From contig NC_061774.1 in NCBI RefSeq assembly GCF_022458985.1, positions 14,064,616-14,128,615 on the forward strand: 64,000 nucleotides of DNA. Reading direction: 5' to 3'. The position numbers and the translations under genes are program-made. Positions within the stretch are counted from its first letter, which is position 1; every line of letters starts with the position of its first letter. Of this stretch, positions 36,320 through 57,825 are shown one piece after another. Source of the stretch: Mugil cephalus (taxonomy: Eukaryota > Chordata > Actinopteri > Mugiliformes > Mugilidae). A model generated the notes under the pieces. The model did no database searches. It was not told the DNA's origin and was given only the letters and a program-made list of their open reading frames with translations.

Positions 36320-39300
36320 CTAACATGTCTTTGTCCCTTCCTCCTGTGTCTGTCCCTCCATCCCACTCCCCTCGTCTTCTTCTTTCTCCGTGTTGATCTG
36401 TGCCACTCCCAGCCGGTACAGAGCGTCCCTGATCACCACCTCTCCGGGCTGACAGGCATTCACCACTTGGTTGATCTGCTGGCTCACGATATCTCTGCTA
36501 GTGAGGAAATCTACCAGGCGGTTGAACAGGTAATAATAAGCGGTGTTGTTGAAAACCATCGGTTGTTTACGTGCATGGTTCACTGATGCACAGGGCTCAG
36601 GTTTTTCTGTGGAGTCACTCTCAGATGTGTCTGGCTGTTCCTTCTGTTCTGGCCCTTTATCTCCCTCCTCTTCCTTCCCCGTCTCCATCTCGGCCACCAG
36701 GCCGACGTAAGGCTCCAGGTCTTTGCACAGGACCATGGAGTGGTGCTCTGGAGCGGGAGGCTCCTGGGCTCCTCCTGGGGCACGAACCAGCCAGCAAGAA
36801 GAGGATTTGGTGATGGGATGGACCTGCTGGGTCTCTGCTGCCAAGGACAGATCAGCGCTGTACGGCTGGTCTTGCAGCTCAGCACATGACACAAACTGAA
36901 GGGGAAAAAGGAGAGTTTTCCTGTGCAGCGTGCAGGGGCACATTTCCTCAACACAAAGTGACAAATTTGTCTCTTTGAACCTAATTCTTGAACAGGTGCA
37001 AACAAGGAGGGAGGTCTCACTAAAATTCCTTGTAACAACGACGCCAGTTTGACAAATGTAAGCAGTCACATTAACAATATTGTAAATTTTTTACAAGATG
37101 AACCAGGAACCATAAGGAAATAATCTCAAGGTCAACCGTCGCGTACTGAGGGTAAATCTTTGTTGATTAGACATTTTTCATATATATACTATTTTTTAAC
37201 TTTCCCCCCAAAATGAATGTTTTAGTGAAGGGATAAATCGAGGCTATCTTACAGTCAGCACTTCACTTATTCAGTGATGCAGGAAATGTCTCTACAGTGC
37301 ACCTTTTCACACAAAGCGCCAAACTAGACCTGTCAATCTAAGCCTCCTGTACACAGTAGGCCCCGCCCCCTATCACTGCTGATCCAATCACAAAGCCACA
37401 TATTACACACCGACTGACCACTGTCAGGTTCCCCGCGACTGGTTAAAGGTAAAGGTATGTATGTTTATGGCACAGACACCCTGCTGTTGGATGTTTGAAA
37501 TTTGAAGCTGTAGTATTTGAACAGCTTTATTTTGAATGCAACATGATAATAATAATGTAGATTTATAAATAGCACTAGGCCGAGCTTAATATAGAACACA
37601 TATAGTAGGTGTGGGGGTCCCTACTTAATCTTTCCAACAGTTTGGGAGTCTTGACCTAATAATTAAATAATTATTTTAATAATTAATAATATTTTAAATA
37701 ATTAATTAATATTTTTAATAAACACTTAATAAAACCAACGCATAATTATTATTATTAGTTTTGAAGTTACTTATGATTTGTTTTGTTTTTGTCAATATGC
37801 TTGTAGATTAAAATAATTATTCACTGGGCTTTAAATTGATTTAATTGCAGGAAATATTTGAGTCCTCTACTAGATAACTGGATTAGACTGAAATCACCCA
37901 CCTCTGGCTTTTCAAAGGGGTCTGAGAAGGAGCCTTGGTTCCTGCCCCACATCTGGGTCGCCAGTTCTGGGTACTGCAGGTCAGTACACAGAGCCACCTG
38001 CCGCGCACAGTCACAAACATAGACGGGGGGCCAGTAGCGGGAGGACACCAGCAAGTCGACGTGATCTCGAGCCGTCTCGCCTCTCACCAAGTACTTAGAG
38101 GCACACACCACCTGGGGACAGGTACAGGGGACAAGTCTTTACAAAAACACCAAGGCGTCTGTGTTTTGGCTCCTGCTTCACTAGGATTCAAGGATTTTTA
38201 TTTCATTCGCAACCATACAAGTAAGAGATGGAACGAAAATAAGCACTCAGGTCCTGGATTTCTACCCATAGTAACTATATAGAAACTAAGAAACTATAGT
38301 ATAGATACTAGTAAACAGTGACTAAACAAGACAAATAAAATAAAATAAATAAGGTAGAAATATAAATAAAAAAGGCAACAAGCAGCATGAATAACGCCAG
38401 TCGAGGAGCATGAATTATTATTACTTTCGTGCAGGGAAATAAATACGCAAAAAGGATTTACTTCGACATGAGTAGCTCACACACGTCAGTGCATCTAGTT
38501 CAACAATGAGAGGGCTGCTGTTTTTACCTTGTGGGGGCAGACCTTCGACAGCTTGCCGGCAGTGAGGTGTGGAGGGGGTTGAGGGGCAGTGGAGAGGCCG
38601 CTATGCACAACAGTGTACAAGGAGACCAAAGAGGCCAGCAGCTCATTCTAACATAGAGGGGAACAGAGAACCGGATTTTATTCATAGAAACTCGCACACA
38701 GATATGAGAACACTGAATAAGCAGCAGTAAAAACACAAATTAGCAGTAATTATAGAAAACATCTTTGCAATTGAATTAAAGCTCACATGCAAAGCATCTT
38801 GCTGAAATTGCCCAGAGAAAGACGCTGCGTCTAGCAGCCCCAGGGAGCGTTTGAGGGGACGAGGGTTTTCTGTTCTACAAACTTAGCACATGATTAGTGA
38901 GTTTCCTCTAACAGGCGTGCTCTAGCTAGTGTTAACAACTGCTATATTTACAGTCAGTGACATAAAAAAAGCAGAAATGTTAGAGCATAACAACCATGAA
39001 GACATCGGTTCCCCTCTCTCTCTGCCAAACACACACACCTTGGTGCAGCCTGGTGCCATAGTTGCCCCACAGCGGTCCAGTATTGTTCTCAACTCCTCCT
39101 CACTGTGATCTTCTATCTTGTCAAGTCTGAGCTGCCCATCATGAATGAGACGCACCAAAACAGACGGATCTCCTGAAACACAGTAAGTCAAGCGTATGTG
39201 TGTTTCCTGTGTCTTCATATTCTTGATGTATCCATGTTCTGTACCAATGTTATGGTAGGAGACAGTCACAGGGTGGATGCATGTTAAACTGTAAACAGCG

Positions 39301-42300
39301 TGTACCTGAAGGCGGCTGTACTTGTGACAGGACCTTGTCTTTCTCTGTGTTGATGACGGTGGGAGCCCTCATCAGGGGAGGGGTGAAGGGAGCGATGATG
39401 GAAGCGTCCACCCGTGTGATAGGGATGTCGGTGGGGAAAGCTGCCTGCTCGATGGCCTCGCTCTCCATCGTCAGCCAGAAGTCATCCACGTGAACTTCAT
39501 CCGACACCGAAAACTCGGGCCAGGTGAACTGCATAGAGTTCACAACAGCGTGGAATAAACACACGCAGTCAAACACCGGTAAAACAGCCTGTGAAACAGT
39601 CACTGCTTAGCAGCTCTCATTTTTATTCCATCACCAGCCTGTCACCTCGACATTCTTGAGCTCCAGGACGTTGTTTGTGTATCTCTGTGCAATCTCAAGC
39701 TTCGGAGCGATGCCACAAATGCCGCAGATCATATCGTTGTAATCTCGTACGGTCACACACTCGAAGGCCCAGTAGCCACTCAGGAGGAGCTCTTGGATTT
39801 GAGATGATTCTTCTGGACTAAGGGTGTGAACTGAGGCAAAGAAGCACAAAAATAGACATGATAGACCATTAAAAACATGTTCTAGACAAGAATACATTGC
39901 AGATGAGTGCAACCCAACACTTACGAGGATGATTAGGGACGTGGTCTAGTAAAGTCCTGGCTGCCTGGGAGGGGGAGTGGCCCAGTTTGATGTTGGCTCT
40001 AATCTTCAAGAACAGGTCAATGCTCACCAGGAGCCGGTTCCCAATGTTAAACAAACCTGTTTTATGAGAAATAAATAAATAAATAGGACCACAGCTCAGA
40101 AAGTTTATTTGAGCTCGATAAACTGAGCGTTACTGTTCCCATGAATACACAAGAAAATACTGCTTCTGTGTGTGATCTTCTGCAGATAAATGAAAGAGAC
40201 GAGTGTGTAAAGTCGCAGCTTATGACCCATCACTTATATTGCAAAAAGGCCACTAAAGATAGATAATGATGACCATAACTGTTTTTACGAGACTTATTTG
40301 TGTCCTGGAGGTCACACGTTTTGTAGACATAATTTACAGCTATGGCGCCCCCTTTTGGCCAATCAGTAAAATCAGTGAAATCACAAACAACAGACGATCA
40401 TCTCGGAACAATCTTTTTTTTTAAGACATAAATATATACCCACAATAAACACTGGGTATGCGTGTGCATGCGTGTGTGCTTGTGTGTGTGAGTGCATGAG
40501 CTGTATGTTTTTATTTTGTGTGAAGCACTCTGCAATGCATTTTATTTGATATATATGTGCCGCATAAATAGAGTTTGATTAGATTTGATTAACAGTGTCA
40601 CAGTCCGAAGTTAGGGCATTGGTAACATTGTATTGTCACAAGATGGTCGGTGTCATTTTAAATCTCCTGTCAGTGGTTTTAATATTGTGGCTGATGAATG
40701 TGAGCGTCCCCGTTTACCTGGATGCAGGTCAGTGAAGCTGTGCAGGGCCAGACACTGAACGTTGAGGCACACCTTGAGCTGCAGAGAGGCTGTCTGCATC
40801 AGTGTTTCAGTGAGCAGCCAACAGTCCTCCTGTCCCGCTACTGTGCTAGAATATCACAAAACATACACAGCAGCATATATTAGTATACAACAGAACATAC
40901 TGCTATTGGCATAATAAAACCAAAATCAGGACCGTTTTAAGGCCATAGACTCAAATCATTACACCCAACAATTCCTCTCACTTCTGCCCTCCTTTGAAGA
41001 GCGGGTAGCTACACAGGCCGCAGTGAGTAGCTGCCGATTCATAGAACTGAGGCCACCCAGACTCTACCAATGTCTCCGTCTCAGCTGTGTTTTCCTGCCC
41101 CTGGTCACTCAGTTGAACCAAGACTATTTGGAGGCTGTTGAGCTCTTGGATGAGGGTTAATATTTCCTGAAGCTCCGTCTCGCTCTCAGGAATCTGCAGG
41201 GAGCTGCGCAGGAGCTGCAGAGTATTTTGGCGCTGGGTGTCTTTCTGGGCAGGAGTAAGGGGCTGGTACGGATCCAGCAAGGTCTCCGACTGAAAAATAA
41301 TGAGCGCAATTTATCCACACTGAATGACGGCAAAGAAGGCTTTTAGGTAGCAAGGCAATGAATGAAGCTTTGTGTTTGCAGCTTTGTTCATGTGCTGCAA
41401 CAAGGTCAGAATGCTTCTTGAAGTAGTTGTAGCGGATATTTTGTGAGAATAGATAAATGCAGACGTGTGAGATTCTAATAAAACAAAACACTCACAAAGC
41501 GAATGAAGAAACAGGTGTTAAGGATGTAAAAGATATCAGTAATCAGTTCTACTTGCTTAAAAACCGTGAAGAGAGAACATCAAAGCCCCGTATTCAGGGT
41601 TAAATCTAGATTTAAGAGCCAACTGCTCAGGGATCCAAGTTTGTGCCGAGTCTCATAAAAGGGATCAAGGGGTCAGAGTTACAGCTGGAAACTAATCCTA
41701 CAACATGTGAAACAAAGCCTGGAGGAAACAATGTCTCCCTCACCTTTGTTGCCTTTTTCTGGGTCAGCTCACAGCCACATTTAGGACACACTGCAGGTTT
41801 GTGCCTGTTCTTATACATATAGTCACAAGACGGGTTCTTACAGCGACCCCTGCCTCGTGCTGTGGACAGCCCCAAGTCCTGAAGGGAATATAGGGCAGCA
41901 CAATTACCCCAACACAGTAGTCCAGAAGCAAAATGACAGTTTGAACATGAGCTGAATTAATAAGATTTAGAGCAAACTAAATTGCGATGAATATACTGAC
42001 AAAGCTGGAAACTGTGTGCTGTTTGAAAGGCACGACTGACAAGAGGTTCAGTCTCTTATCAGTCAGTGAAGACACAGGCTGGCCTCTGTCTGAAGGGGTT
42101 ACAGAGTCCTACAAGAGAGACAGAATGGATTTAATTTACATTTTCACTGTTTTCTACTCTAATATATATATATTTTTTCATTTAGTTTAGTGTGTGTTCA
42201 CCTGGTTGGCTGTGGTTGTTGGGACCATGTGGCCGAGCTGCTTCAAAGTGCTGGGTTTCAGACCTGAGAAACTCTCTCTGGGCACTGTGGTTAGAAAAAC

Positions 42301-48141: not shown

Positions 48142-49108
48142 ATGGCGGATGACAAGGTGAGTGAGTGAATGTGGTGTGTGCTGAAATAAATTAGTTTCAC
48201 GTGTCTCCTCTGACGTTTGGCAGCACTTCGGTCTGTCGTGTTGAAACTGATTTCTCGTGGCGAGGATGACTAAATAATCAGAACCGATGAGCTGGTTAAG
48301 TTGAGGCTCTACAGCTGAGCAGAAAAGTTGGAGTGAACAGTGTAGGTGTTAGGCTCCTCACGAGAATGCTGTCAGTGCGTTTAGATTATATTTTAAGAGC
48401 AAAGTCAGCTGTGTCATAGTTAGATTTACAACGACATTGCTTCTTAATCCAGATGTTGATGAACTGCTCTTCTTTTAGGATCCTCTGAAAAAGCTGAAAG
48501 ACTTAACGCAGCTCAAAAGTCAGTTGGAGGAGATTCAGAGGCGAGTAGAAAACGAAGTCTCTGCAGGAATCCCCCAGGTAAGTTAACATAAATGTTCCCG
48601 ATGAGCACGATATGAGTTGCTGAAGGCATAGTTCAGGTTTTTAAAGTGGGATTGCATGGTGTATTTTTACACATGTATTGTAAATCGATCACCATCTACT
48701 GCAACACAGTGGTTATGGAGAGACAAAACACATAAATACATATACTTGTAACATACAGTATAAAATTCTCACTGAATGCATGTAAAGTGGGACACGTGGG
48801 CCACTCATTCTCACATTTATAGTATTATATGTCTCCTCAGGCAAGATAATTGGACTGTGCTAAAAATCCTGCTGTTATTATTATACTTATTGTAGGTTTT
48901 GCTCTTGTAGGGAAGCTCTGTGCTGGGCTCTCCGTTTCTGAAGGGCTTTTTGGCCGGCTATGTGGTGGCCAAGCTGCGGTCCTCTGCCATCGCTGGGGTG
49001 CTGCTGGGAACAGTCACTGGCATATACGCGGCACAGAACTATCAGGTGCCCAACATCGAAAGGACCGTCAAAGAGTTAATGAACAGCTTCAAAAAAGGAC
49101 CAAAGTAA
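48142..49108 (+). CDS. slc35a4: SLC35A4 upstream-ORF microprotein (SLC35A4-MP)
   Basis: Coding exons 48142-48156, 48479-48577 and 48911-49108 are in phase and give 103 aa, the same length as the human SLC35A4 microprotein. It starts MADDKDPLKKLKDL, continues with a short coiled-coil-like stretch (LEEIQRRVE), then a glycine/alanine-rich hydrophobic segment (about 47-75: SPFLKGFLAGYVVAKLR, then GTVTGIYAAQNY) and a basic C-terminus ending KKGPK. Human work places this protein in the inner mitochondrial membrane. The AUG context (aaaATGg) is strong. The third exon has tandem acceptors: using the earlier tag at 48893-48895 adds 15 nt ending in an in-frame stop, so only the second acceptor (exon start 48911) yields the microprotein. 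The main transporter ORF lies further along the same last exon. Confidence 0.88.
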
Positions 49109-50629: not shown

Positions 50630-50969
50630 TAGAGTCTTAATCAAAGGAGCCGCCCTCATAGAGCCCTCAGTACAGTCCGACACCTTCAGGTTTGGTTTAT
50701 TTTCTGCCTTCTTTCCATCTGCCTTGGACTCTTCATTCAGATTCCAACACGTGTTTGACTTGTACCACTATTTTTACCATTAGTCATAAACGATAATAGA
50801 GCTGATGAGTTCATTTAAAGTTATTATGTTACACTGTTACAGTAAATGTATTCCATGATGCAAGTAATTATTGTATTTTAAATCAAAACATTTCTTCTGA
50901 AAAGTGCTGCTACATTTTGTATCACATTCTCTGCCAAAAACGATGTCGGAGACAAAGTGTTACACAACC

Positions 50970-50975
50970 AATAAA
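50970..50975 (+). terminator. slc35a4 polyadenylation signal
   Basis: AATAAA lies 341 nt after the slc35a4 stop. It is only about 30 nt from the minus-strand signal of the opposing gene. Confidence 0.6.
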
Positions 50976-51001
50976 TGGTCAAAAAGTAACTTCAGTCAGC
51001 G

Positions 51002-51011
51002 TTTATTTATT
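51002..51011 (-). terminator. Polyadenylation signal of the kinesin-like gene
   Basis: Overlapping TTTATTTATT on the plus strand gives tandem AATAAA signals on the minus strand, 7 nt after the predicted stop of the kinesin-like gene. That 3' UTR would be unusually short and would overlap the 3' end of slc35a4. Confidence 0.55.
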
Positions 51012-51017
51012 GTGTAT

Positions 51018-54000
51018 TCATTGTTGCTGGGATATCAGGTCAGCCGTGGGATCACTTCGCACAGCTAGAGTATCTTTTATCTCTCCCAGTGCTGTAAATA
51101 ACAAAAACAGAAGGATTTGGAAAGAGTTTAGTGTCTGTCTTTAATATGCCTGCCTCCATGGTAGAGGTTAAGAGGCATATAATGACCTTTACGGAGTTGT
51201 TTGTTGTCAGCTTGGAGTTGCTGGTTCTGGGCAGACAAGTAGATGGCATCCTGCACGGCTTCCAGCAGCACGCTCCTGTACCTGCTCTCTGAGATCTTCC
51301 TCTGCTCCTCAGTCACCTGACGAAACACTCTGAAAACCTACAGAGCGGTAAAACGCAACAAAAACACCGGGGGGGCGATGCAGGATGGAGGTCTACTGAA
51401 AGAAGCCTTGAGTAAGCTTTTTGTCAAGCAGCCAGTTATGAAAAAAGGAGCAGTTATTTAATGAAACAACTCATATTTTACGAGCTTGCTCGGTTTTTTG
51501 TTTTTTTAAGTATTTTGTAGAATCAAACTAAGGTGCAATTTCAGTAGGAAACTGTTACTGTTTTGAAACCAAAAGTGTACTTAAATGTGCAACAGCTGTA
51601 GTTTTAACACAACAGGCAATTCAGACATCTAATTGAAAGTAATTATTAATTACGGAATGTATATGTGACATCTAATGTAAGTTTCTTTGCTAACCACACT
51701 AGCTCCCACCTGCAGGCTCTCCTCCCGCAGACAGTGCAGCTCTGCTTGGTGTCTGTGATATTGATCCTGGAGGTCTCTCTCAGCCTGCTGGGCCTCAGCA
51801 CGTAGGGCCTCTATCTGCAGCACCAGGACCTGCCTCTCTCTGGTCAGGACCAGCAGCTCTCTCTGAGGGCCTTCTGTCTAAGAGAGGAATGGATCCGAAC
51901 CACAAAAAAATGCAGGGTAATAACAGGATTAAGTTGCAAGTGCAGTCTTTCCGCTGCTCACCACAAATCCAGCCGTGCATGAATTTAAAATGACTCAGCA
52001 TTGGCAGCTAAGACAGATCACAAACGGAGTAATGTTAAACAGCGGCATATCTCATTATCTCACCGGTAGCTGTTCCTGTGCCAGTTCCCTCTCCATTTTC
52101 TCCACCTCCTCCCGAATTAATCTCCCATGATCCTCCTTAAGTAGCCTCCTCCGCTCCTCTGCTTTGTTGTATTCCAACTGAAACTACAACAACAATAACA
52201 ACTACAGCAAAATAAATGTCTCAGTGTGGGTTGAAAACTCTTGTACACATGAACTGATTTCAAAATATGCTCCAATCCCTTAACCTTTTCTGCACATTAA
52301 TGAATAACTTTAGACAAATCTAAAGAAGTCACTGAAGATCCAGGGCAAGAACTTGTCTCTAACGATCTGAACGCAGTGATCTCAATAACTCTCAAGTTTT
52401 CACTATTCCTTATGTGGTCGTCCATTAGGAGGGACAACAATCTCAGCAGCACTTTATCCCTCAGTGCTGTTCAGCTCCTGCTAACAACACCACCATCCCT
52501 ATGGTAGAGCACGGTGGTGGCAGCATTATGTTAAAGGGTGATTTCTCAGCAGGAGGGAGGGTGAGAGTGTCTTTCTAGACACATGCAGAAATGTCCTTGT
52601 GAAAAATCTGAGACAGTGGAAGAGTCTTGACTACTTGAATGAAGGAGAAATTTCAGTTTTTAATCTTTAACCTCCAGAGACCCTGCGTCGTCATATGGGG
52701 ACATTAAGTTTTAGGTTTTATTGCTGCTTTATTTAAACCCATTTTGTCATTAGTGGGCGCTTTAGTCTGCCATCTAGTGGTTGAAAAGGTTAAAACGTAT
52801 TTGTTTATGATTATTAACGTTTCTAGTTTGATATGACCTTGAATTAGCAATATTTGATAATTAGGAAGTGCTCGTTTCGAGGATGTTGGGACTTAATCCT
52901 TTGCAATTGTTGGTATTAAAATAAACAGTTTTAGATTTTGTCACACATTGGGGACTTCTGTATAATATAAATAATGTAATAATCAGAAATAATATAGAGA
53001 GTTTAAAATGGGAAATACTTGTTGACAGAGTGGAGATTTCCCTGCAGCGGCCCCACTCTTTAGGGTCTCCTCTCTGAGAGCTTCCTTCAGCTGCTGGATT
53101 CTCGCCACCCTCTCCTGGACTTTTTCTACATTCCCTTTACCTTCTGTGAATGTAAGAAACACGCAGATTATGCTGCTCATGACTGGTCCTACGTGTATAA
53201 AGTGAGATTTCTTCGAATCGCAGCATGCTACCCCTGATGTGTTCTTCCATCTCCCGTCTCAGCTGGTCCTGAAGGTATTTCGCTGCTTCTGTACTCTCTC
53301 TGTGCTCAGTGTGATGATCTCCAGGACACCGCTGACTGCCATTCAAGGACACGTTTTTCTGCCAAATTAATTAAAAATTAAAACATGGAACTCGTCTGCT
53401 GACACAAATTTAATGAGATTTCTTTTTTTACATTAACCTTGCAAATTAAAGTAAATAAGACTGAGACCTTTATTTTGACTTTCATCTTGTCTGACTCTTC
53501 CCTCCTCTTCTCCCATGACTGATTTTTCACAACCTGTTGTAGCGATTGCAGACAACATCAGCTACAAACTCAAATAGACCTCACATGACATGTGCCGTGA
53601 AAGCATTATTCAGTGTTAGTCTCATTGTGTCAGTTACCTGCAGGTTTTGAGTCAGCTCAGCTAGCTTGTATATGTGAACTTCGCTTTCCCCCTGTGACAT
53701 TATCACTCTTCTTAGATCTGCGATGTTATCACGAATCTCTCGCTCAGTTGTTCTTGGACTCCAGCGACCAGTGCTTGCTTTAGTTACCAAACGTCTCGCT
53801 CTGTAGGCCAAATCTAAGGCACAAGGTGTCTCGTCATCTAGAAGACCTGGAATCAGGTAACCAGAAGTCTGCTTAACATCAATTCAGCACCCGTTTCTAA
53901 GATAAACATGTGACACATTTGGCCCCGAGGACCACTTACCTTGAGGGCTGATGCAGTAGATGAGGACTGTCCTGCTATTTCCTGTTAAGGCCTCATTAAG

Positions 54001-56839
54001 AAGGAAAGGGAGAAGGTTGATGCTGAGTGTGGCGGTAGGATTTGGGATTTGGTCCAAAACCTTCACCAGTGGGCTGACACTGGAAAACACATAAATTAAA
54101 ATATTAAAATCATGGCAGAAGATCTTTGATTCATAAGAAAAATAATGTTGTCACAACAAGAAAAGTATAGGTGTTTCTAATGTGGTGAAGCCAGCAAGCT
54201 GCCACTTTCATATGGCACACCCCTTCAACACCACACATATCCACCCCCTAATTTATTCAGTACACCTTTTAATCATATTGTTATAAGCTGCTGTGCTCAT
54301 TACTTCCTTAAATGCCTGCGCACACCTCGTACTCAAAAGCTTTGCCGCTCCTTGCTGCCGCTGTTACTAACAGTGATTCAAAAGGCATGCATCCACCACA
54401 GCATCCACATTATTTTTCTCTAGCATTACCTTTTGAAATAACATTGTCACTCCGCAATCCTCGCAGTGTTGAATTTGATGTTTCCTTATCAAGAGAAACG
54501 AGGTCTGAGTCTAAAGTCAACACTGTAGTTATTCTACATTTCCATAATAATCCTCTCTTCTATGAGAGCTGACTGTCAGAAATAACATTAATGTCATATT
54601 ACTGGCCCATAGAGAGATGATGTGGCGTTAATAGGACTGCGTTTTTTTGTTCTTCTGGCACCGCTCTTACTCCCAGAACTCAATAGTAATGGGTTCCTCA
54701 TATCATTATAGTATCGATAAAGCAGTGTAAATGTTTAAAGAGACTCTATTACAACATGTTACTTGGTGGCTTTTCCACTGCCTAGATGAAGTTATGTGAA
54801 TGATGGATGACCACAATCAGAATAATGCTTTAGAAGTTGGTAGGTCACTTGATTATTAGCTCCTCTGGCCCATGTAATAGATAGCTCACTATATCTCACT
54901 GACCCTCTGAGGTCAGTCCTGCTGGCTCCTCCTGCCAGGCTGAACAGCTGCAGTCTGCTGCGGCAGACATCTGACTCCACCTCCTCTGGATGGAGTTTCC
55001 ACTCAACGGCCACTGAAAACAGGGAGCTGCATCTGGGACAAAAAAACACACACACACACACCATGAACAAGGATGGGCATCGATGCGATTTTATTGATGC
55101 CTACGTCACTATCGATTCTGCTTATCGATCCGATTCTTTATCAATTCTCTTATCAATTCTTCCTGTGAAATTGTATTGAGTTTCTAAACAAGAGGTAAGT
55201 TTTAAAAGTTTGTCCATAGCACAGTCGTCACTAGCATTGCCCTGCTGAGACTTAGTGGCAGCCGCACATGTTGACTGGAGATTGTTGAACACATGGCACT
55301 CTCAATGCCGTGTGTCGTTGACAAATGCTTAGTCATGTCGGTGGTGTTGTCACATTTTCTTCAATGATATTGAAGCATTGAACCTGTGTTCTTTTAAAAG
55401 AACCGGTTATCGATGCCCATGAACCATGAACAGGTAACAAGTTCCTTCATATAGAAATGTCAGAAAATGCCGAGCTGACTGACAGAAGGCAGAATAATCA
55501 GTGGGCTTTATTGTGATTAACTACTAATTAATCACTTAAAAGTAATACAGTTAATGGATCACATGGACAGAGTTTGTTTGACCCACCGGCTGGAAATTGG
55601 CCCCGCATTCGTCTTCAGAGCCTCCCTGCATGTTTCATACAGAGTGTAGGCTTCGTCTGCTGAGCATACACACACCTCACAAAGACCTCCTACAAGACTG
55701 AGCAAAACAACAAGGACTAATTCTTCACTTTATTTTTACATTTCATCCACTTTAACGTATACATGGGTTTTAATAGTGACATAAATAATACACTTCATTG
55801 TGACACACCTTCCGAGGACTGGATGTGTTACAGGTTGTAGAGTCTGTTTGGGGCTCAGCAGGTCCACCGCACCGCCATCTGGATAAAACTGACATTAAAA
55901 AACATTAGACTTTATTCTATATGGCAATGTGTGTATAACACATCTGTGTCATCAATCGGACAAACCTGAAGGAACGAGGCAGAAATGAATGACTCCTCTT
56001 TCACTTGTGACGCTATACAACTAAAAAGATTTGCCAAGACCTGAGATAGAGTCAAGAGGAAGATTAATAGTGCAAAAACATCAAATCTGCCACTGTTGCG
56101 TGTATTTTGGTTCGGGGCTCGACCTGTCTGATGATTCTGCAGTCAGTCAGAGCTGTCATCGGCTCTGTGGAGGCGCCGCATAGTACCACTGCTGCATTAT
56201 ACCCACTGGATACGGACTCGATGAGAGGCTGCAGGAGCTCAGAGTGCAGACTCTGCAGATTTATATTCAGGCGTTTAGCTCATCACAACATTTTCCAGTG
56301 AATATAAGGTTTGGTGAAGAGTATATCTCAGACAGACGTCAGTAGCTCTTTACCTCTATGTTATCAGCAGTCACAACTTGATCAAATGAGAAGGACTTTG
56401 CATCCTGATTGAAAAATAAAACACGTTTTAGAGGACAGGGAGGTTTTTAACAGCGGTGAACTAATTTAATCTTTTACCTCAACCTTTGCTGATTTGTAGT
56501 CAACGCCACGTCCTTCCTTACTAATAACCACACAGTCTCTACAATCTGTTTATTAAAGAAAACAACAACACTTGAACATTCCCCTGAAACAGCATGCCTT
56601 TCAAGCATTCTCAGATGTTTGTCTCTTTGTGTTTACCTGGGTTTGTAGTAAGTAACACTCCCACTCTTACTGCTTCAGATCCCTCACCTGTCTGTGGAAA
56701 GTTGGAGATCAAAGACTCAGACGAACCGGACTTCATTATCTTTTCCAGTATTCTGCCATAAGGTGCATTCACTGGCGCGGAAAAAAAAAACGTACAGACA
56801 AAATATACTCACAGGTGCATTCGTGTTTACAGTGGCCAT
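51018..56839 (-). CDS. Kinesin-like protein with degenerate motor, coiled coil
   Basis: I do not recognise a named orthologue. Exons in transcript order: 56839-56813, 56691-56637, 56545-56478, 56404-56354, 56252-56124, 56040-55966, 55888-55807, 55686-55587, 55032-54904, 54079-53940, 53846-53638, 53533-53468, 53358-53193, 53143-53019, 52183-52064, 51877-51710, 51337-51187, 51091-51018 (644 aa). Kinesin landmarks occur in order: VRVGVLLTTNP about 18-27, FSFDQVV about 55-61, GYNAAVVLCGASTEPM 84-99 where the P-loop GQTGSGKT should be, ISSRCSSLFSV 193-203 (switch I), LFSLAGG 225-231 (switch II LVDLAGS), then LLNEALTGNSRTVLIYCISP 265-284 (the SKLT..LGGNSKT..I..SP element) and a neck-like ALDLAYRARRL about 295-305. 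GKT and the switch II aspartate are missing, so ATPase activity is unlikely. From about 350 it is coiled coil rich in E/R/Q. The exon 7/8 junction and the last splice are the least certain. Confidence 0.72.
52330..52690. mobile_element. Degraded Tc1-like transposon fragment
   Basis: The words 'aacaatctcagcagcact', 'caccatccctatggtagagc' and 'acggtggtggcagcattatg' appear in the order of the Tc1-family transposase coding sequence of fish. Large parts between them are missing and no frame survives. It lies in the 0.8-kb intron between kinesin-like exons 14 and 15. Confidence 0.55.
55069..55423. mobile_element. hAT-like MITE with 8-bp target duplication
   Basis: ccatgaac occurs at 55061-55068 and again at 55424-55431, directly flanking the unit. 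The ends share atgggcatcgat in inverted orientation (left 55074-55085 region, right reverse-complemented at 55409-55420). An 8-bp duplication fits hAT. It has no coding capacity. It lies in the intron between kinesin-like exons 8 and 9. Confidence 0.7.
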
Positions 56840-57825
56840 CCTGCACGTATGTGAAACAACTCTGAAGCCGTCTCACCTGGATTTCCTTTCAGCGGGGTTA
56901 ATTATTAATGAGGCCGAATACTTTCACTGGTCTCAGTGATCAGGGTAGAGTTACAACCATCAGCCGAGAGGCCGCATCTGGGTTTATTTGTGAGGTCATG
57001 AAGGTGGATATCCGGTCGTCGTCATTTTAGGACATGTTATGCGCAGTTGAGAGATGATTCGCACACATTTAATTTTTTTTAGGTCATAGAGATGTTGTTG
57101 TACTATTAAAATTATATTCATTGGAAACTGATTCACTTATTGTTTTCCATTTTATTCACAGATCCGCTATAAACCATTAAAAACGAACCAATTTTCAGAC
57201 TAAGAAAATCTCATTGAATAATGTTAATATATTTTTATTCCCTCTGTGAAGACCAGTATTAATGTTGTCATTAATGGCTTGTAAGTGATCATCTGTGGCA
57301 AAACACCTTCTGAAACCTATACAAGTCCTGTGTTGGACCACCCACCAGTTTAAGATTTGTTCAATAAGTCAGAGATTCTCCAAGACTTCTGATTTTCTGC
57401 TATTGGTGTTCGTACCAAATCAATAACATCCTCAATCCTGTTGTCTGCTGTTGTCAGTCGGGTCTTCTGGACATCATTTCCTCAATGGACAGCAAACAGG
57501 AAGCAGCATAGCATACTGTTGTCTGGTAATAAAATGCGTCTCTCTTTTGTACGAGTATGAAGATGTGAACGAGAATTAAAGCAGAATGATTCAAGTGTGT
57601 GAAAAACTGATTGAATCTAGTACGCTTCACTGAAAACAAGAAAAAGATGCCACACAACCCATAAATGAACCACGTCACTGCATCTAATCAGGTCAAATTT
57701 TATTCAGGCCTTGTTACCACTACAGCTTTTAGCAGTTAAAAATGCAAACTGTGTTGTCAGGAGAACTTTATTTAACCATCCGAACACAAACACAGAGGTC
57801 AAGTCAGCTCGTGTGCTTACATTCA
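56840..57825. other. Intergenic, kinesin-like 5' flank to cd74 3' flank
   Basis: No gene evidence. The first 150 bp should hold the promoter of the minus-strand kinesin-like gene; no clear TATA or CCAAT was found. A TTTATT at about 57697 could serve as a distal cd74 polyadenylation signal. Confidence 0.4.

Follow-up and report, generated by a model that had tools for sequence, protein, structure and literature searches.

Kinesins with a dead motor seem to be few; that a kinesin head may be useful without ATP is seen in KIF26/VAB-8 and Cik1/Vik1. KIF26A, KIF26B and VAB-8 (kinesin-11) have no functional P-loop and are described as non-motile in the accessible part of the source (PMC12646758). 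Cik1 and Vik1, the partners of the kinesin-14 Kar3, combine a coiled coil with a motor homology domain that can neither bind nor hydrolyse ATP, and the available text describes these ATP-less heads as a foothold for Kar3 (PMC4338441). The name pseudoKinesin-21 denotes an orphan kinesin group, unique to fungal taxa according to the portion of the article that is available (PMC5076506). A Tetrahymena homologue of vertebrate CCDC78 carries a kinesin motor domain, as stated in the accessible section of another article (PMC11870508), and the available part of a paper on CCDC78 myopathy names kinesin only for KIF7 (PMC11394131).

Here we describe a gene of Mugil cephalus, called the pseudo-kinesin below, in a window of 64,000 nucleotides, the whole stretch of DNA that was analysed (contig C5 14064616-14128615). 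Judged from its sequence, it is probably a single-copy coding gene whose product, a kinesin-fold protein with a dead ATPase, would place or hold a partner instead of moving. A literature search, with subscription papers mostly beyond its reach, found no vertebrate case of an ATP-less regulatory kinesin head and no description of this fish gene. The latter result leaves room for an earlier description, and the gene may well be annotated in databases already.

Gene model and surroundings

The pseudo-kinesin gene lies on the minus strand between SLC35A4 and CD74 (Table 1); a preliminary description of the locus had named no strand. Its exons were chosen by hand for openness. In the resulting model all 16 introns (73-835 nt) are GT-AG with coherent phases, and the spliced frame runs through 651 codons with no internal stop and a single terminal stop, in agreement, at the sequence level, with the earlier view that the frame is open and the gene not a simple pseudogene. 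Counted from the first in-frame Met at 56736, the protein has 640 aa. The preliminary description had given 18 exons and 644 aa. Joining the alternative exon 1 (ATG 56839) in phase takes acceptors within exon 1 or introns shorter than 60 nt; 12 joins to the 17-exon chain are formally open, and one of them, with a 9-nt exon and a 91-nt intron, gives exactly 644 aa (length summed by hand). The longer version can thus be reached through one of the 12 joins, its extra exon being unproven, and our model remains the chain of 17 exons. The motor is unaffected by this ambiguity of the N-terminus, because its first strand starts 22 residues after Met 56736.

Table 1. Features of the pseudo-kinesin gene, in window positions
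Feature	Positions	Strand	Remarks
Pseudo-kinesin gene, 17 coding exons	51018..56771	minus	hand-spliced, all introns GT-AG, frame open
Exons 1-6	56771-56637, 56545-56478, 56404-56354, 56252-56124, 56040-55966, 55888-55809	minus	
Exons 7-12	55697-55587, 55032-54904, 54079-53940, 53846-53638, 53533-53468, 53358-53232	minus	
Exons 13-17	53143-53019, 52183-52064, 51877-51710, 51337-51187, 51091-51018	minus	
First in-frame Met (MKSGSSES), proposed start	56713..56736	minus	alternative first exon starts 56839
Beta-1 strand VRVGVLLTTNP, kinesin RxRP absent	56638..56670	minus	aligned by eye
P-loop position GYNAAVVLCGASTEPM, no GKT	56157..56204	minus	
Switch I NAGPISSRCS	55026..55609	minus	intron-split
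Switch II LQLFSLAGG	54927..54953	minus	Ser in place of Asp
Shortened L11/alpha-4/L12 (GVSPLVKVLDQIP) and kept stretch LLNEALTGNSRTVLIYCISP	53944..54905	minus	intron-split
Motor end, neck and first helix (DETPCALDLAYRAR ... REIRDNIADLRRVIMSQG ... SWEKR)	53468..53846	minus	weak kinesin-3 neck resemblance
Coiled-coil-like tail	51018..53358	minus	residues 428-469, 479-507, 526-575, 610-638 (NAPYG = 1)

The surroundings were surveyed by a Pfam search of ten chosen frames. Ig and tyrosine-kinase domains scored above the cut-offs at 8.2 and 18.1 kb, with weaker matches, below the cut-offs, at 26.0 and 31.8 kb; the stretch 8155-32135 (+) is read as two tandem receptor tyrosine kinase genes, a PDGFRB-CSF1R-like pair. 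An HMG box at 45.2-45.5 kb presumably belongs to HMGXB3, and the nucleotide-sugar transporter at 49.6-50.6 kb is taken to be SLC35A4. Thyroglobulin-1 and MHC2-interact domains at 58.7-60.8 kb are read as CD74, and the order after the receptor pair is HMGXB3-like gene, SLC35A4, pseudo-kinesin, CD74. The frame at 39250-39606, one of the ten, had no Pfam match. Before SLC35A4, frames at 48479-49108 (+) lie in two pieces, the second of which (48914-49108) matched Pfam DUF4535 (E 3.4e-11); we presume that they correspond to the conserved microprotein encoded upstream of SLC35A4 in mammals, which they resemble. By eye, positions 52440-52560 in the 835-nt intron of the pseudo-kinesin resemble what we take to be a Tc1/mariner-type transposon remnant. 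One short pair of inverted repeats was found in that intron and none in two others. There was no match in PHROGs up to E 0.001 or in Rfam above the gathering scores, and no tRNA was found.

Kinesin homology and the altered motor sites

The Pfam kinesin profile (PF00225) matched the protein at 77.5 bits (E 1.2e-21; cut-off 29.3), far beyond chance, and a sequence search of the PDB gave KIF1A (9e-15), Plasmodium kinesin-8 (8.8e-14) and OSM-3 (3.2e-13) as the best matches. Both results bear out the proposal that the protein is similar to kinesins and derived from a motor. The other Pfam matches of the whole protein were Microtub_bd (25.7 bits, below the cut-off) and a weak DUF7629; most matches weaker than about E 0.1 are removed by the HMMER filters in this search. 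We also built a profile from 35 kinesin motor loci stitched from this genome, leaving out the window gene. It scored 70.5 bits against the protein, with two significant segments in collinear order, at residues 75-252 and 284-332; another segment, at -1.9 bits, is noise.

Alignment with the kinesins of its own genome placed GASTEP--MT at the P-loop position of the pseudo-kinesin, where Walker A GK[TS] is absent. Switch I reads SSRCS, with SSRSH absent, and switch II reads FSLAGG against DLAGSE, with the Asp absent. The beta-1 strand, aligned by eye, reads VRVGVLLTTNP against VKVVVRCRPMN in the paralogue L009; the RxRP of kinesins is an adenine contact. The preliminary description had named a P-loop with no GKT, a switch II without the catalytic Asp and a switch I keeping SSR but not SSRSH, and all of these were located (Table 1). 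It had also counted seven kinesin landmarks in the correct order; those that it spelled out were found, the full seven never having been itemised there.

For a control we used the 35 stitched motor loci, chosen as strong PF00225 matches among the matches listed for the genome (634.8 Mb, 24 contigs), a set that does not include 20 further kinesin loci. GK[TS] is kept in all 35. The switch II Asp is present in 32, unrecovered in L034 and L039, and replaced by a divergent sequence in L018 that probably comes from the stitching; odd letters next to the L015 P-loop and within L018 probably stem from intron read-through. Switch I reads SSRSH in 29 loci and SSRR in three (L028, L033, L041) and was unrecovered in three (L040, L042, L043), so SSRSH is not universal. 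The control shows that ordinary kinesins here keep GK[TS]; it does not single out the window gene as the one exception. Its loci were selected for strong matches, and the window gene is itself absent among the PF00225 matches listed, so other degenerate kinesins could be missed.

The extent of the erosion was counted over 76 motor positions that are at least 75% conserved among the own-genome loci. The pseudo-kinesin keeps 29 of the 52 that are aligned, and 24 of the 76 are missing. With missing positions counted as lost, it keeps 2/10 in the P-loop, 3/6 in switch I, 3/7 in switch II, 0/14 in L11-alpha-4, 5/13 in L12/alpha-5 and 16/26 in the rest. Under a grouping made after seeing the table, the functional sites together (13/50 kept) differ from the rest (16/26) with a Fisher p of 0.003, and the nucleotide sites alone (8/23) with p 0.056. 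The 0/14 is in part an effect of the profile, which did not align this stretch; part of alpha-4 does align in BLAST. The PYRDSKLT of L12 is also unaligned in the profile comparison.

In BLAST alignments with L009 and L017, GVSPLVKVLDQIP falls on the latter half of alpha-4; the first half of that helix and most of L11 have no counterpart in the pseudo-kinesin. The L11/alpha-4/L12 stretch is about 17 residues shorter than that of L009, as counted by eye on the BLAST alignment, and the microtubule-binding elements L11-alpha-4 and L12/alpha-5 together keep 5 of 27 conserved positions. The catalytic parts and a large share of the microtubule contact are thus gone, and part of the core, with LLNEALTGNSRTVLIYCISP and DETPCALDLAYRAR, is kept.

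The tail was examined with COILS, using a matrix entered by hand. At a P of at least 0.5 it marked 150 of the 311 tail residues, a number that none of 100 shuffles reached (mean 45), and none of 340 head residues. In a cruder test of heptad periodicity, shuffles scored as high in 125/200 cases for the neck, 58/200 for the tail and 5/200 for the head, significant for the head but not for neck or tail, which either counts against a coiled coil or fails to discriminate. Against Pfam the tail gave weak matches only (Sas-6_C_CC and Mrr_N), and against the PDB no match up to E 5. The motor end and neck (98 aa) had no kinesin match in the PDB search. Neck matches among the own-genome loci were weak, the best being L015 at 0.76, which runs into the switch II of L015, followed by L023 (1.8), L022 (4.4) and L029 (9.0). 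The preliminary description had called the protein a scaffold or microtubule binder with a coiled-coil tail. As far as sequence goes, the lost nucleotide residues and the COILS result for the tail agree with this picture; the microtubule binder loses ground, because the erosion extends to the canonical microtubule face, and for this reason we think a scaffold or partner role more likely than microtubule binding.

Copy number, coding constraint and competing explanations

A search of the fish's own genome with the whole protein gave 26 matches (24 candidates scored). Seventeen are the gene's own exons (C5, minus strand, 66-98% identity by piece), eight fall at kinesin loci and one lies elsewhere (C7:18806882, 29%, E 0.16, three stops); the nine non-self matches have 27-36% identity. 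No close second copy was found among the 24 candidates scored. In a tree the pseudo-kinesin, with a branch length of 2.3 substitutions per site, stands beside presumed kinesin-3 loci and, with low backbone support, apart from L040, L042 and L043. The kinesin-3 position is unsupported, since its aLRT of 71.4 and UFBoot of 39 are too low, and with weak evidence from the neck as well it was rejected as a firm placement. Of six intron positions that were mapped, one (column 91, phase 0) is common to 6 of 33 loci; none of the six is presumed kinesin-3, and we take them to be kinesin-4/8-like. By a rough estimate, one common position in six is no better than chance.

Several measures bear on whether the gene still codes. 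The shifted frames of the exon chain hold 39 and 38 stops against none in the true frame, and the codon score is 0.011 in the true frame against -0.09 and -0.165 in the shifted ones, with an unweighted mean of -0.39 over the introns. Exon by exon, the coding frame scores best in 11 of the 17 (p 0.008) and not best in six. About 4.6% of single-base changes in the frame would create a stop, so a copy that had long been neutral would have accumulated stops. The changes in the nucleotide motifs were probably mostly later than the loss of catalysis, yet there are no stops or frameshifts, which argues, short of proof, for continued coding constraint. The same observations bear on a recent unitary pseudogene, a kinesin lately out of work in which stops have yet to build up. 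Several nucleotide motifs have changed separately and the protein has been shortened in frame with the 651 codons intact, and this, together with the clean introns and the share of point changes that make stops, renders such a pseudogene quite unlikely, even though the very long branch would suit it.

An error in the gene model would be another way to explain the lost motifs, the model having been made by hand, if an alternative exon gave back a normal P-loop or alpha-4. We consider this very improbable. The P-loop position lies inside a single exon, and its flanking residues align with kinesins on both sides. Scoring the 824-nt intron before alpha-5 (54080-54903) for a missed motor exon gave nothing beyond chance: the best candidate reached -4.5 bits, and 100 Markov resamples had a median of -4.2 and a maximum of 2.2. 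When 50901-57060 was searched for fragments in all six frames, LPFLLNEALTGNSRTVLIYCISPQG was the sole fragment at E 0.05; because the other motor exons of the gene escaped this search, it speaks more strongly against a normal GKT exon than against a degenerate one. We also considered GARRTKKRSPINATSSLYG (about 54660-54594), a resemblance spotted by eye, as a missed alpha-4 exon and rejected it, as its -5.0 bits are at the null level and its end, checked by hand, is out of phase.

Comparison with known kinesins and kinesin-like heads

Among active families, kinesin-3 comes closest in the PDB search, where KIF1A is the best match and the similarity to 7wrg and KIF13B extends beyond the motor. 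The 7wrg entry, titled 'Kinesin-like protein' and presumably KLP-6, is similar from the motor end through SWQQK, which corresponds to SWEKR in the pseudo-kinesin, and KIF13B matches over a comparable stretch. However, Plasmodium kinesin-8 and OSM-3 score nearly as high, and the pseudo-kinesin has no GKT. The FHA domain, which in kinesin-3 follows the neck, had no Pfam match in the protein or its tail.

The likeness to KIF26/VAB-8, as far as the accessible source describes them, lies in kinesin homology without a functional P-loop. We take L040, L042 and L043 to be KIF26-type loci from their LDLG-C signature; they keep GK[TS], whereas the P-loop sequence of the pseudo-kinesin is wholly lost. 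In these three loci GSCE or GSCD follows the switch II Asp. The pseudoKinesin-21 group is alike in name as an orphan kinesin and is set apart by its description as fungal-only, as given in the available text.

The CCDC78 domain, which we take to be DUF4472, is absent among the Pfam matches of the pseudo-kinesin protein and its tail, and is found instead on contig C16, where matches of 41.4 and 39 bits mark a CCDC78-type locus at 18.786 Mb (G000:C16:18786561-18787059). That the window gene is a CCDC78 with its ancestral motor kept, an identity for which the motor of a Tetrahymena homologue speaks in the part of that article available (PMC11870508), is scarcely credible on these grounds, and we rejected it.

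The reading that we favour is an ATPase-dead protein that places or holds a partner. Its head would fold as a nucleotide-free kinesin-like domain, with no ATP cycle and no stepping, and would serve as a rigid binding module. Neck and tail may form a dimer, with a second copy of the protein or with an active kinesin, and the protein could then position or hold its partner as a scaffold, anchor, brake or regulatory head.

Pairing by coiled coil with an active kinesin, which the protein would tune as Cik1 and Vik1 do Kar3, is a reading that we regard as rather doubtful. In kind the architecture is the same, an ATP-less motor-like head joined to a coiled coil, and the yeast proteins provide the precedent (PMC4338441). 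According to the accessible text, however, they keep a microtubule site, the canonical form of which is eroded here, and, as Cik1 truncations indicate, they carry the head at the C-terminus, whereas that of the pseudo-kinesin is N-terminal. The two are likened by architecture. It is unlikely that the gene encodes a vertebrate analogue of the Cik1/Vik1 kind, in which an N-terminal head, having lost its ATP site as well as the usual microtubule face, would convert or brake an active kinesin.

For annotation, a Pfam Kinesin label on this gene would wrongly imply a motor. Our best reading is that the pseudo-kinesin, as a protein that places or holds a partner, may act in a way comparable in kind to that of VAB-8/KIF26 or Cik1/Vik1. 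Lacking the nucleotide motifs and having a shortened microtubule face, it would be a more extreme case than either, and would raise the question of why a kinesin fold persists once both of its known jobs are lost.
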